DNA of 64,000 bases from Kordia antarctica (lineage in GTDB: Bacteria > Bacteroidota > Bacteroidia > Flavobacteriales > Flavobacteriaceae). The stretch spans positions 3,377,501 through 3,441,500 of the forward strand of contig NZ_CP019288.1 in assembly GCF_009901525.1 (NCBI RefSeq), in the 5' to 3' direction. Below, piece by piece: positions 34,570 to 56,543 of this stretch (within the stretch, counting starts at the first letter, position 1; every line of letters starts with the position of its first letter). The translations under genes were made by a program, and so were the position numbers. The notes under the pieces were generated by a model. It did not search any database. It saw only the letters and a program-made list of their open reading frames with translations, and had not been told where the DNA came from.

Positions 34570-34739
34570 CCGAAAAAAGTCATTGTTAATTTCATTTTGC
34601 AATCGCTTCACGCTGAACTCATTATATAGTAGTACCAATTGTTGATAGTTTGTAGCTAAAAAGTGAGAAGTAAATTTTGTTACTTCAATAATTTTTACAA
34701 TACAAACAAATACCTGAGCTAACCTATTTAGTTAGCACT

Positions 34740-35045
34740 TCTTTTTAGCAAAGTTATAAAGAGTCGCTCTCTTGATTGTTAACAAAAATTTACCAACTAT
34801 TTATCACAAAAAAGCTGTGTATAAGAGTTGTTAATAACTGTTCATAACCTATCTAATGTTTCTTATGTTGAACACATTAGTCTTTTCATAACTTGTTCAT
34901 CAAATTCGATAACACACAATTCCTATCAAAAGTAAAAAAAGTTTTAGTAGCTATTCACACGCTATAATAACCACCAATAGTTTTTTTAAATTTATAAAAG
35001 AAAGAAATATATATATTATTAATGTTCATAACATTTGAAAGAAAT
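34740..35045. other. Candidate replication-origin-like region (DnaA-box-like and AT-rich)
   Basis: A 1.1-kb gap (34517-35630) without genes holds a cluster of origin-like words. TGTGTATAA at 34816-34824 is the reverse complement of TTATACACA, an exact DnaA-box consensus. TTTATCACA (34800-34808) and CTATTCACA (34951-34959) are one mismatch away. TGTTCATAAC occurs at 34839-34848 and 35023-35032, with TTTTCATAAC at 34883-34892, and GTTAATAAC lies at 34830-34838. An AT-only stretch (ATATATATTATTAAT) near 35008-35022 could be an unwinding element. This is suggestive only; skew or marker-frequency data would be needed. Confidence 0.35.
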
Positions 35046-35630
35046 CTATCTTTTTAAAAGAGAAAAATGACTGTTTTACTTAATTTGAAAATGTGTCAAT
35101 CTGAAGATTTGAAAATGCAATTTAGAATTATCAAATAAGCATTAAAGAAATCTTTAAAAATAATTAATCGATTACTTTCGCTTTCGCTAGAATAAAAAAA
35201 TAAGGTAATCATTCAATACGGTTTGAAGCTACTAAGAAATTATAAATGTTGAATTATAAATCATTAGTGTCCGATTAAAATCACTTAAAATGTTTCAAAG
35301 TCTATTTATAGTTGAAGTCTAAGTGTTTTAAAGCAATAACACCTTGCTTTTAAAGACAATTTTTGAAAAGATAGAAAACACAATATTATCTTTTAAATTA
35401 CTTCTGGTTGTCAAGTAGTTAACATAGAGTCTTTATTCTTGGCTCTATGAGCGCAGCGGTCTTATATCTTATATCGGACAACAATGATTTTAAATGTAAA
35501 GGTTTGGATAAAATAATCTGTTCATTGCATACCAAAACGTCACTTCGAGTTAAATTCTAAAAGAATTTAGTATCGAGAAGTACTTTAATTTTTCAATCTA
35601 ACTAGTCTAACAATCTAAGCAAGTCTAAAT
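35046..35630. other. Non-coding stretch with short dispersed repeats
   Basis: No gene is seen. GAAGATTTGAAAAT at 35103-35116 repeats the word at 6648-6661. CTATGAGCGCAGCGG near 35445 resembles words at 11945. A hairpin AATTCTAAAAGAATT with flanking CACTTCGAG and ATCGAGAAG near 35550-35580 belongs to the CTCGATAC-type intergenic words found at 11147 and 14157-14203. Confidence 0.4.
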
Positions 35631-44275: not shown

Positions 44276-46564
44276 ATGACAGAAGAAACAAAATCGCTCA
44301 ATTTTATTGAGCATATCATAGAAGAAGATCTTGCAAATGGAATGTCGAAAGATAAGTTACGCTTTCGCTTTCCGCCAGAACCAAACGGTTATTTGCATAT
44401 CGGACACACCAAAGCTATCGGTATTAGTTTTGGTTTGGGCGAAAAATACAATGCGCCTGTAAATCTTCGTTTTGATGATACAAACCCAGCCAAAGAAGAG
44501 CAAGAGTATGTAGACGCTATTAAAAAAGATATCTCTTGGTTAGGCTATCAATGGGCAAACGAACTGTATTCTTCTGATTACTTTCAACAATTATACGATT
44601 GGACAATTCAACTCATAAAAGACGGAAAAGCCTATGTAGATTCGCAATCGTCGGAAGCAATGCGCGAACAAAAAGGAACACCGACGCAAGTTGGTACCAA
44701 TAGTCCGTATAGAAATAGAACTGTTGCCAAAAATTTGGAATTATTTCAAGGTATGAAAGCTGGCGAATTTAAAGCAAAAACTCATGTATTGCGTGCAAAA
44801 ATTGATATGAAACATACAAACATGCACATGCGCGATCCGTTGATGTATAGAATCTTATTTTCGCATCATCACAGGACTGGTGACGTATGGTGTATTTACC
44901 CAACTTACGATTGGACACATGGTGAAAGTGATTACATAGAACAAATATCACATTCTTTATGCTCACTAGAATTTAAACCACACAGAAAACTCTATGATTG
45001 GTTCAAAGAACATGTGTTCATTTATCAGAATAGAGAAATATACAAAAACTTATTAAAAATAAAGTATATTGGAAAAGATAGAGCTACTAGAATCATATCT
45101 CAACTTTCAAATGAAGAAATTTATGATGCTATCAAAAATGAAAATGTATCTAAATTATTAGAAGTAAAATATATTGGAAAAGATAGTGCAAAAGAAATAA
45201 TTTCTAATTTTAGATTTAAAGAGATAGTTTTCAATCTAATTAATAATAATAATATTCAGTATGAATATTCAAATACCTTTAATAATTACAAACCCAATAT
45301 ACAGCCAAAACAACGTGAATTTGCACGATTAAACCTAAGTTACACCATAATGAGTAAGCGTAAATTACTCAAATTGGTAGAAGAAAATATAGTTTCTGGT
45401 TGGGACGATCCGCGAATGCCTACTATTTCTGGCTTACGCCGAAGAGGTTACACGCCAAATTCCATCAAGAAATTTGTGGAAACGGTTGGTGTTGCGAAGC
45501 GCGAAAATGTAATTGATGTTTCGTTGTTGGAATTTTGTATCAGAGAAGATTTAAACAAAACAGCCAATAGAGTCATGGCAGTTTTAGATCCTGTAAAGTT
45601 AATCATTGCGAATTATCCTGAAGGAAAAGAAGAATGGCTTGAAGCTGAAAACAATCCAGAAGATGCAGCTTCAGGAAGTCATAAAGTTCCTTTTTCAAGA
45701 GAATTATACATTGAAAAGGAAGATTTCAAAGAAGATGCAAGTAGTAAATATTTTAGATTGACACTTGGAAAAGAAGTTCGTTTAAAAAATGCATATATCA
45801 TTAAAGGAGAAAATGTTATAAAAGATGCGGATGGAAATATTACAGAAATTCACTGTACATACGACGTTGACAGTTTAAGCGGAAGTGGAACAGAAGCAAG
45901 TGTACGTAAAGTAAAAGGTACATTGCATTGGGTTTCTATTGCACATGCAGTAAAAGCTGAGGTTCGTGTATATGATCGTTTATTTTCTGATGAAGCGCCT
46001 GATAGTCACAAAGACAAAGACTTTATGGAGTTTGTAAATGCAGATTCTTTAAAAACGGTGATTGCGCATGTAGAACCGTATTTAAAAGAAGCCAACGTTG
46101 GAGATCGTTTTCAATTTCAACGTTTGGGTTATTTCTGTGTAGATAAAGATACAACGGCAGACAAATTGATTTTTAATAAAACGGTTGGTTTACGCGATAC
46201 ATGGGCAAAACAAAAGCCAAAACCAGCACAAAATCAAGGAAAACCTCAGCAAAAGCAAGAACATCAACGTCCGCCAATTGAGGAAATAAAGCAATTTGGA
46301 AAAAAATATACCAATCTTCCAGAAGAAAAGCAGGAAATTGCCAAAGCGAAGATTCAAGCATTAGCAGAAAATGTTCCGTATGAAGATGTAGAACCGTTAT
46401 TTGCAACAGCAGCTAAAAAAGCAGGAACGCGCATTGCAGTTATGATTACGTTAGGTGTTTTACTCAAAAATGGACAAGAACGCACTGATAACATTAATGA
46501 ATTCATTGAAAAAGCATTGGATGACAAAAACGAATTGTTAGTTGCGGAAGCGAAGCAAATGTAA
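44276..46564 (+). CDS. glnS: Glutaminyl-tRNA synthetase with internal RuvA-like HhH insertion
   Basis: The 762-residue protein is a class I GlnRS: PPEPNGYLHIGHTKA (HIGH loop, about 33-47), TYDWTHGESDYIEQISHSLC, SGWDDPRMPTISGLRRRGYT and MSKRK (KMSKS loop). Between YDWFKEHV (ending at residue 247) and QPKQREFARLNLSYT (from residue 343), where bacterial GlnRS has a few residues, there are about 94. This segment reads as two helix-hairpin-helix units, LLKIKYIGKDRATRIISQL and LLEVKYIGKDSAKEIIS, in RuvA spacing, and is more AT-rich than its surroundings. After the anticodon-binding domains a Gln/Pro linker leads to about 110 helical residues resembling a YqeY/GatB-tail-like domain. It charges tRNA-Gln. 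Confidence 0.92.
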   Translation: MTEETKSLNFIEHIIEEDLANGMSKDKLRFRFPPEPNGYLHIGHTKAIGISFGLGEKYNAPVNLRFDDTNPAKEEQEYVDAIKKDISWLGYQWANELYSSDYFQQLYDWTIQLIKDGKAYVDSQSSEAMREQKGTPTQVGTNSPYRNRTVAKNLELFQGMKAGEFKAKTHVLRAKIDMKHTNMHMRDPLMYRILFSHHHRTGDVWCIYPTYDWTHGESDYIEQISHSLCSLEFKPHRKLYDWFKEHVFIYQNREIYKNLLKIKYIGKDRATRIISQLSNEEIYDAIKNENVSKLLEVKYIGKDSAKEIISNFRFKEIVFNLINNNNIQYEYSNTFNNYKPNIQPKQREFARLNLSYTIMSKRKLLKLVEENIVSGWDDPRMPTISGLRRRGYTPNSIKKFVETVGVAKRENVIDVSLLEFCIREDLNKTANRVMAVLDPVKLIIANYPEGKEEWLEAENNPEDAASGSHKVPFSRELYIEKEDFKEDASSKYFRLTLGKEVRLKNAYIIKGENVIKDADGNITEIHCTYDVDSLSGSGTEASVRKVKGTLHWVSIAHAVKAEVRVYDRLFSDEAPDSHKDKDFMEFVNADSLKTVIAHVEPYLKEANVGDRFQFQRLGYFCVDKDTTADKLIFNKTVGLRDTWAKQKPKPAQNQGKPQQKQEHQRPPIEEIKQFGKKYTNLPEEKQEIAKAKIQALAENVPYEDVEPLFATAAKKAGTRIAVMITLGVLLKNGQERTDNINEFIEKALDDKNELLVAEAKQM
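45017..45298 (+). other. In-frame RuvA-like insertion within glnS
   Basis: This segment encodes GlnRS residues 248-341. The 17-mer TATATTGGAAAAGATAG occurs exactly twice (45065-45081 and 45170-45186), 35 codons apart and in frame, marking the two hairpin units. Runs such as TTAATAATAATAATATT near the 3' end show a sharper AT bias than the rest of glnS. No terminal repeats or intein splicing residues are visible. Confidence 0.75.
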
Positions 46565-55031: not shown

Positions 55032-56543
55032 CTATATCATTTCAACAACCTTTTGAATCCGCTTGATGGTTTCCTGTTTTCCAATCATAAACATAATTTG
55101 AAACAAATCAGGTCCTTGTAATGCGCCAACTAATGCCAAACGCAATGGTTGCATTACTTTTCCAAAACCAATTTCGTTGCTTGTAATCCAACCTTTAATA
55201 TCGGTTTGAAGGTTTTCTACGGTGAAATCTTCTATTGGTTCAACAATCTGTATCAATTGCTGTAAAATCTCGCTTGTACCTTCTTTCAATGCCTTTTTAG
55301 ATGCTTTTTCATCGTATTCTTGTGGTTCAACGAAGAAAAAATGACTCAAATTCCAAAAATCACTCACAAAAGTGGCTCTTTCTTTAATCATTCCGACAAC
55401 TAATGCAATATAATTTACATCAATTCCAACCAATTCCGCTTGACTTTTTTGAAAAGCTTCCGCCAGACTTTCGTCAGATTGTAATTGCATATATTGCTGG
55501 TTGAACCATTTCATTTTATCAATGTCAAATCGAGCGCCAGCTTTATTAATTCGCTCCAATTCAAATGTTTCAATCAACTCATCTAAACTGAAAATTTCTT
55601 GTTCTGTTCCAGGATTCCACCCTAAAAATGCTAAGAAGTTTATCATTGCATCATTAAAATATCCTTCTTCACGGAAACCTTTAAAAGTTTCGTCTCCTTT
55701 TTGATCATTCCACTCAAGTGGAAATACAGGAAAACCAAATTTTGCACCATCACGTTTGCTTAACTTTCCTTTTCCAGTTGGTCTCAGAATTAAAGGTAAA
55801 TGTGCAAATTCAGGAGCTTCCCATTCAAATGATCTGTATAATAAATAGTGCAATGCTAACGACGGCAACCATTCTTCTCCACGAATTACATGTGTAATTT
55901 CCATTAGATGATCGTCTACAATATTTGCCAAATGATAGGTTGGCATTCCGTCACTTTTAAACAATACTTTATCGTCTAAAACGTTCGTGTTAACTTCAAC
56001 ATCTCCACGAACAATATCTTTTAAATTTAAAATTTCATCTTCTGGCGATTTGAAACGAATTACATACGCTTCTCCAGCTTCTAATTTAGCATTTACTTCA
56101 TCTTGCGTAAGCGATAACGAATTTGAAAGCTTCAATCGATTGTGCCAATTATAGATAAACGTTTTTCCGTTTGCTTCATGATCTTTTCTGTGCGCATCCA
56201 ACGTTTCTGCGGTATCAAATGCGTAATATGCATGTCCTTTTTCTAATAATATATCTGCATATTCACGATACAAATGTTTGCGTTCACTTTGCTTATAAGG
56301 ACCAAACCCGCCATCTTTCATTGTGCCTTCATCAACAGTAATTCCGCACCATGATAATGCTTCTGTAATATATGCTTCTGCGCCTTCTACAAATCTGTTT
56401 TGATCGGTATCTTCGACACGTAAAATAAAATCTCCGCCATGTTTTTTGGCAAACAAATAGTTAAATAAGGCAGTTCTTACGCCTCCAATATGTAAAGGTC
56501 CAGTTGGACTTGGTGCAAAACGAACACGAACTTTTTTAGTCAT
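55032..56543 (-). CDS. gltX: Glutamyl-tRNA synthetase
   Basis: The 503-residue length is normal. FAPSPTGPLHIGGVRTALFN contains the HIGH motif and KGKLSKRDGAKFG contains the KMSKS-like loop (KLSKR). The catalytic and anticodon-binding domains are complete up to a conserved C-terminal helical part. The enzyme charges tRNA-Glu. An OmpA lipoprotein gene follows one base downstream. A -7 element lies upstream. Confidence 0.97.
   Translation of the reverse strand: MTKKVRVRFAPSPTGPLHIGGVRTALFNYLFAKKHGGDFILRVEDTDQNRFVEGAEAYITEALSWCGITVDEGTMKDGGFGPYKQSERKHLYREYADILLEKGHAYYAFDTAETLDAHRKDHEANGKTFIYNWHNRLKLSNSLSLTQDEVNAKLEAGEAYVIRFKSPEDEILNLKDIVRGDVEVNTNVLDDKVLFKSDGMPTYHLANIVDDHLMEITHVIRGEEWLPSLALHYLLYRSFEWEAPEFAHLPLILRPTGKGKLSKRDGAKFGFPVFPLEWNDQKGDETFKGFREEGYFNDAMINFLAFLGWNPGTEQEIFSLDELIETFELERINKAGARFDIDKMKWFNQQYMQLQSDESLAEAFQKSQAELVGIDVNYIALVVGMIKERATFVSDFWNLSHFFFVEPQEYDEKASKKALKEGTSEILQQLIQIVEPIEDFTVENLQTDIKGWITSNEIGFGKVMQPLRLALVGALQGPDLFQIMFMIGKQETIKRIQKVVEMI

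Follow-up and report, generated by a model that had tools for sequence, protein, structure and literature searches.

A RuvA domain II-like helix-hairpin-helix segment inserted in frame in the glutaminyl-tRNA synthetase of Kordia antarctica

Introduction

Domain insertions in the cores of tRNA synthetases are mostly known as old events, which makes their beginnings hard to study. The glnS gene of Kordia antarctica raises the question of what such an insertion looks like when ten other members of the genus are without it. Its glutaminyl-tRNA synthetase (GlnRS) carries an extra segment near the substrate site. No bypass of this enzyme was found, and the ten genus mates lacking the segment form a natural before-and-after set. 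This would allow a direct test of whether the gain of a domain is neutral or useful, or comes at a cost that is compensated.

An earlier note, made from the letters of the window (the whole analyzed stretch of 64,000 nucleotides), had described the segment as a RuvA-like tandem helix-hairpin-helix (HhH) domain gained in frame by an otherwise intact enzyme, and had proposed for it either an added nucleic-acid contact or a nature as mobile element. The descriptive part of this interpretation held in our analysis, the mobile element did not, and the nucleic-acid contact came out weakened.

Results and Discussion

An extra in-frame segment in glnS

The following features are needed here (window coordinates):
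44276-46564, + strand: glnS, glutaminyl-tRNA synthetase with insertion, 762 aa (ORF, TIGR00440, Pfam)
45017-45298, + strand: extra segment, residues 248-341 (alignment, composition; right border uncertain)
45260-45301, + strand: YEYSNTFNNYKPNI, the old GlnRS loop, lengthened, or a RuvA linker

In the ORF list, the glnS frame runs without a stop from 44276 to 46564 and is intact on either side of the segment, in agreement with the intact reading frame noted earlier. The protein passed the curated cut-off of the TIGR00440 glnS model (696.5 bits in two stretches; cut-off 425.8 bits), and Pfam recognized tRNA-synt_1c together with both anticodon-binding domains. Alignment to the E. coli GlnRS structures (1gsg, 1o0b) stops at residue 248 and restarts at 338, and the TIGR00440 alignment restarts at residue 331 after the segment. 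While both flanks align with bacterial GlnRS, about 80-94 additional residues are present here at E. coli positions 248-251, 4-7 residues ahead of the equivalent of position 255. Y211 and Q346 align to E. coli positions 211 and 255, which we take to be glutamine-binding positions.

The RuvA similarity described below begins at residue 250-251, and two readings compete for the right border. The stretch YEYSNTFNNYKPNI is similar to the corresponding loop of the genus mates (YEYSKDEYPL, between V and Q), which together with the TIGR00440 restart at 331 speaks for the old loop. In contrast, the RuvA profile alignment runs through SNT in YEYSNTFNNYKPNI, which speaks for a RuvA linker. If it is the old loop, the foreign part may comprise only 45017-45259.

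The segment is AT-rich, as the earlier note had pointed out: its GC content is 19.9% (GC3 13.8%) versus 36.6% (GC3 26.6%) for the remaining glnS. Equally low values occur in 0.036% of the 282-bp windows across the 64 kb, all of which begin at 45005-45022 or 34976-34985; at the latter spot, no ORF of at least 80 aa overlaps 34700-35500. This composition suggests that the donor was AT-rich or that the segment changed rapidly once captured. Shuffled inserts were open in frame in 3 of 200,000 trials, yet the open frame alone is little proof because any stop would disrupt a gene that appears to be essential.

The segment is found in one genome

For comparison, GlnRS was aligned with 98 relatives, consisting of 18 loci and of 80 further loci, which are the best 80 among 587 stretches confirmed. 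One of them (L140) was excluded from the site count since its row is empty of residues there. Residues 248-341 were without counterpart in all 97 readable relatives (80 being the best 80 of 587), including 10/10 genus mates, which bears out both the missing counterpart and the in-frame gain. The loop region measures 113 residues in this GlnRS. Of the 97 relatives (best 80 of 587 included), 63 have 23 or 24 residues and 34, among them all ten genus mates, have 28. Eleven further loci outside the 97 (L026-L036), inspected by eye, lacked the segment as well. With a threshold of E 1e-50, GlnRS was matched in 44/60 genomes, own included; in the other 43, the match pieces stop at or before 254 and restart at or after 338. 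Scanning 11 genomes of the genus with HHH_5 gave a single match in a GlnRS-sized frame, only in this genome. The architecture, suspected to be without precedent, was present in no other GlnRS of the genomes searched, and we found no publication describing a GlnRS with such an insertion in the open-access literature. What we observe is a real domain insertion in GlnRS, known from one genome.

The gene itself is in its usual place. Its two upstream neighbors in the window are taken to be folB and a gene for a zinc-ribbon protein, and at least one of them adjoins glnS in 8/10 loci of the genus mates; in the other two (L010, L015), neither was seen beside glnS.

Occurrence in a single genome is what an assembly or sequencing artefact would produce. 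However, the genome is a single contig with 100% completeness, the frame is intact on both sides, and a DNA search of the genome revealed no second copy of the segment and no source for a misjoin, the next match being 22 bases long (E 8e-4). We therefore regard an artefact as extremely unlikely.

The natural length of the loop differs by 5 residues among the 97 relatives (80 being the best 80 of 587), and one locus of a family member (L030 of genome G033, 2416-2484) carries a different in-frame GlnRS insert, IPTPALPKGEGSNIPPTPLQRGS, in the same loop, parts of which are found at 9 further places in the G033 genome. The latter insert indicates that the loop accepts unrelated insertions, and the two observations are best read as those of a GlnRS loop that would tolerate insertions.

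The segment resembles domain II of RuvA

Within the segment, we assigned the following parts:
45026-45223, + strand: RuvA domain II-like core, TIGR00084 positions 69-134 (NCBIfam, RuvA profile, hhalign)
45050-45106, + strand: HhH unit 1, LLKIKYIGKDRATRIISQL (Pfam HHH_5, RuvA alignment)
45107-45154, + strand: connecting stretch, SNEEIYDAIKNENVSK, aligning to the RuvA inter-hairpin stretch
45155-45211, + strand: HhH unit 2, LLEVKYIGKDSAKEIISNF (Pfam HHH_5, RuvA alignment)
45065-45081, + strand: 17-mer copy 1, encoding YIGKD of hairpin 1
45170-45186, + strand: 17-mer copy 2, encoding YIGKD of hairpin 2

The proposed likeness to the tandem HhH in domain II of RuvA, a DNA-repair protein, was borne out by the profile searches. 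The NCBIfam ruvA model (TIGR00084) matched the segment at positions 69-134 with 47.4 bits (E 1.7e-12); this score is below the curated 85-bit cut-off for a whole RuvA and covers domain II only, so that the segment is RuvA-domain-like and not a RuvA. Pfam HHH_5 (PF14520) reached 35.5 bits with the segment alone and 31.1 bits in the whole protein, compared to a gathering score of 27. A profile built from 41 RuvAs (40 from the family, 1 from another) gave 56 bits, versus at most 16.7 for shuffles (n=4702; 5000 shuffled proteins, 298 without score) and 1.0 for the reversed segment. This profile score and the identity comparison lean to insert-like RuvAs, because RuvAs of other genera had been selected as the best matches of the segment. 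Hhalign of the segment against four RuvAs resulted in 97.1%.

The segment shares with RuvA domain II (TIGR00084; PF14520) two HhH units 35 residues apart, a hairpin spacing identical to that in 7 RuvAs compared, as well as a similar connecting stretch and a similarity that starts at RuvA residue 67-69. Unlike RuvA, it is without domains I and III, is embedded in GlnRS and is only distantly related by identity, ranging from 19.5% to 35.3% across 53 RuvAs (best: L051; L047 was left out of the set since it gave no RuvA frame). The 17-mer TATATTGGAAAAGATAG, reported as a repeat with a spacing of 105 nt, has exactly two occurrences in the genome (window positions 45065 and 45170), versus 0 for the control read backwards.

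HhH pairs are common across proteins, and the segment could derive from another family such as LigA or RecD2. The low identity to RuvA (at most 35%) and the missing placement in the RuvA tree would fit this, and among solved structures archaeal topoisomerase V (E 6e-4) follows the RuvAs closely, with E. coli RuvA as best match (E 9e-5). On the other hand, the ruvA model is far ahead of the next NCBIfam families (RecD2 E 6.8e-5, LigA E 0.025), the similarity already starts ahead of hairpin 1, and the spacing of the hairpins equals that in the 7 RuvAs. A source in another HhH family appears improbable to us.

Searches for a donor or a mobile element

We rejected a recent copy of the host's own ruvA as the source, the identity being 24.7%; host RuvA is less like the segment than most RuvAs compared, of which the non-genus ones were chosen as best matches. 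In a RuvA tree based on 85 columns, the segment formed the longest branch and received no donor placement. Searches with the segment in 397 genomes of the family (E <=1e-6), 395 of the phylum and 395 of the order (both E <=1e-7), in overlapping draws that included the own genome, returned nothing but its own glnS and RuvA-sized frames of 193-236 aa. Scanning 11 genomes of the genus gave a RuvA-sized frame in each, plus a weak 94-aa frame in one (G006, E 0.009). The plasmid search yielded a best E of 2, and scans of viral contigs and genome contigs, from which the own and near genomes were possibly excluded, confirmed no relative.

A phage origin was rejected as well. The two weak matches in a phage collection (E 0.006 and 0.2) lie in unverified 'phage' records, OR844993.1 (L077) and MT836546.1 (L078), where the matching frame is a putative bacterial ruvA with ruvB or ruvC as its neighbor, and both records resemble host sequence.

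The mobile in-frame element of the earlier note has a precedent in the Rickettsia palindromic elements, which, according to the excerpt of PMC10969869, insert in frame within protein-coding genes. Like these, the segment is an in-frame insertion in a coding gene, here a housekeeping gene, and a dispersed repeat occupies the same loop in G033. However, the Rickettsia elements are palindromes of about 150 bp in many copies, whereas the segment is one copy, longer, and a RuvA-type domain. The segment is not strongly palindromic either: its inverted arms reach 20 nt at 70% and 14 nt at 86% at the longest. Its RNA fold is ordinary (z -0.79; 24/100 shuffles equally stable). The searches of 11, 397, 395 and 395 genomes likewise gave RuvA-sized frames and the weak 94-aa frame, although relatives weaker than E 1e-6/1e-7 would escape the three large ones. 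With one copy in the genome, a multi-copy mobile element is rejected, and an origin of the segment from a mobile or selfish in-frame element appears quite improbable to us.

Could the segment be removed from the RNA, as an intron or by bypass, or from the protein? Nothing except the location within an enzyme favors this. The segment is in frame and its homology is at the protein level, Pfam at E <=10 revealed no intein, and Rfam at E <=1 gave one match, which is below the gathering score, belongs to an unrelated family and lies on the opposite strand. Based on this match and on a fold no more structured than that of shuffles, an intron or structured RNA was rejected, and removal at either level is hardly credible.

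The host enzyme is conserved and presumably active

The gatB gene was found in 0/11 genus genomes, with the control search positive in 12/14 named genomes. PF00749 is represented in this genome only by glnS and one 519-aa frame, presumably GluRS. Since no gatB was found in the genus and no second GlnRS in this genome, GlnRS is presumed to be active with the segment and to charge tRNA-Gln. The other PF00749 gene, the presumed GluRS, is located in the same window (55506-56534, - strand), about 9 kb from glnS. The excerpt of PMC3927822 concludes from the lack of gatCAB that the Bacteroidetes surveyed there (14 species), with the exception of S. ruber, have a functional and essential GlnRS.

The rest of the enzyme proved intact, with 45/46 columns that are invariant among the 97 relatives (best 80 of 587 included) retained and G168K as the exception. 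In comparison to a relative (L008), dN was 0.054 and dS 0.51 in residues 1-247, and 0.049 and 0.495, respectively, in residues 343-762, showing that glnS outside the segment is under normal purifying selection.

Altered hairpins and the possible fate of the module

One further feature is of importance here:
44555-44911, + strand: residues 94-212, holding 10/15 genus-unique substitutions outside the segment (alignment)

In RuvA, the hairpin glycines and lysine carry the backbone contact, and the G-x-G motif serves nucleic-acid binding. Both hairpins of the segment read Y-x-G (Y-I-G), in contrast to G-x-G in both hairpins of 53/53 RuvAs. Moreover, the lysine right after hairpin 2 is replaced by Asp and the glutamate ahead of the first helix by Asn, each invariant in 53/53 RuvAs. 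Several core HhH positions are retained. The twofold Y-x-G together with the Lys to Asp change speaks against plain nucleic-acid binding, and our best reading of these residues is that the module would have lost its canonical DNA contact. With the first glycine of both hairpins and the invariant lysine of hairpin 2 replaced, the nucleic-acid contact put forward earlier is weakened. The two HhH units agree in 12/19 residues, compared to 6-8/19 in the 7 RuvAs, a hint that, instead of decay, conversion or selection towards a shared hairpin may have acted on them.

AlphaFold2 predictions were of too low confidence to inform on the fold. The model of the full protein (32 relatives) had a mean pLDDT of 68.6 and a pTM of 0.51, with ten-residue blocks of the segment at 29-54 and much of the neighboring catalytic part equally low. 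Helices were predicted at 254-263, 268-276, 279-287, 291-298 and 302-311, in the order expected of two HhH units, at a pLDDT of only about 35-54. The segment alone reached a pLDDT of 40.9 and came out as a mixture of strands and helices unlike an HhH pattern, with strands where HhH helices were expected.

Residues 94-212 would correspond approximately to the part of E. coli GlnRS that binds the acceptor. They contain 10/15 of the genus-unique substitutions in this species, compared to 12/60 for the ten mates together (Fisher p 0.0009; region picked post hoc), and a plain split of residues 1-247 versus the rest gave only p 0.037. The substitutions in this part include KHTNMH for EDPNML and M210T; position 210 is Met in 96/97 relatives (best 80 of 587 included) and Thr here.

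With moderate confidence, we favor a single capture on the terminal branch. The lineage of this species would have acquired, in one event, a fragment homologous to RuvA domain II that comprises two HhH units and the connecting stretch; its place is the GlnRS loop immediately ahead of the equivalent of E. coli position 255. Relative to the genus, the event would be recent. The segment would be translated within the enzyme, and its fold is probably still that of a small helical module. For the most part, this module may be a guest that the enzyme tolerates and that has lost the RuvA manner of binding nucleic-acid backbones. Changes elsewhere in the catalytic half perhaps accommodate it.

Alternatively, the HhH module might be functional, contacting the tRNA acceptor end, another nucleic acid or a protein by the active site and thereby altering affinity or regulation. 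Its position 4-7 residues ahead of the equivalent of 255, the open frame, a net charge of +4 over 94 residues, the retained core HhH positions and the substitution excess in the post hoc region 94-212 are in agreement with this, and the likeness of the two units speaks for recruitment. As precedent, the excerpt of PMC3927822 describes a YqeY paralog on D. radiodurans GlnRS that raises tRNA affinity. The twofold loss of the first hairpin glycine, the change of the invariant lysine to Asp and the occurrence in one species only among those examined argue against such a role, which we consider rather unlikely. Similarly doubtful is the more specific idea that on one branch a RuvA-type module acquired through recruitment a new task at the active site, in contact with the tRNA acceptor or a protein, and that the acceptor-binding domain co-evolved; if true, it would present an aminoacyl-tRNA synthetase at an early stage of domain gain via insertion.

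The GlnRS of Deinococcus with its appended YqeY (NCBIfam PRK14703) resembles the case reported here in carrying an added domain. That addition is C-terminal and non-HhH, whereas here the catalytic part is interrupted by HhH units. Independently of the segment, the present GlnRS has a C-terminal extension (window 46223-46564, about residues 650-762) that some relatives have and others lack, their GlnRS matches ending near 646 or near 760. This extension gave no Pfam YqeY match at E <=10, yet the NCBIfam GlnRS/YqeY fusion model is the top match of the whole protein.
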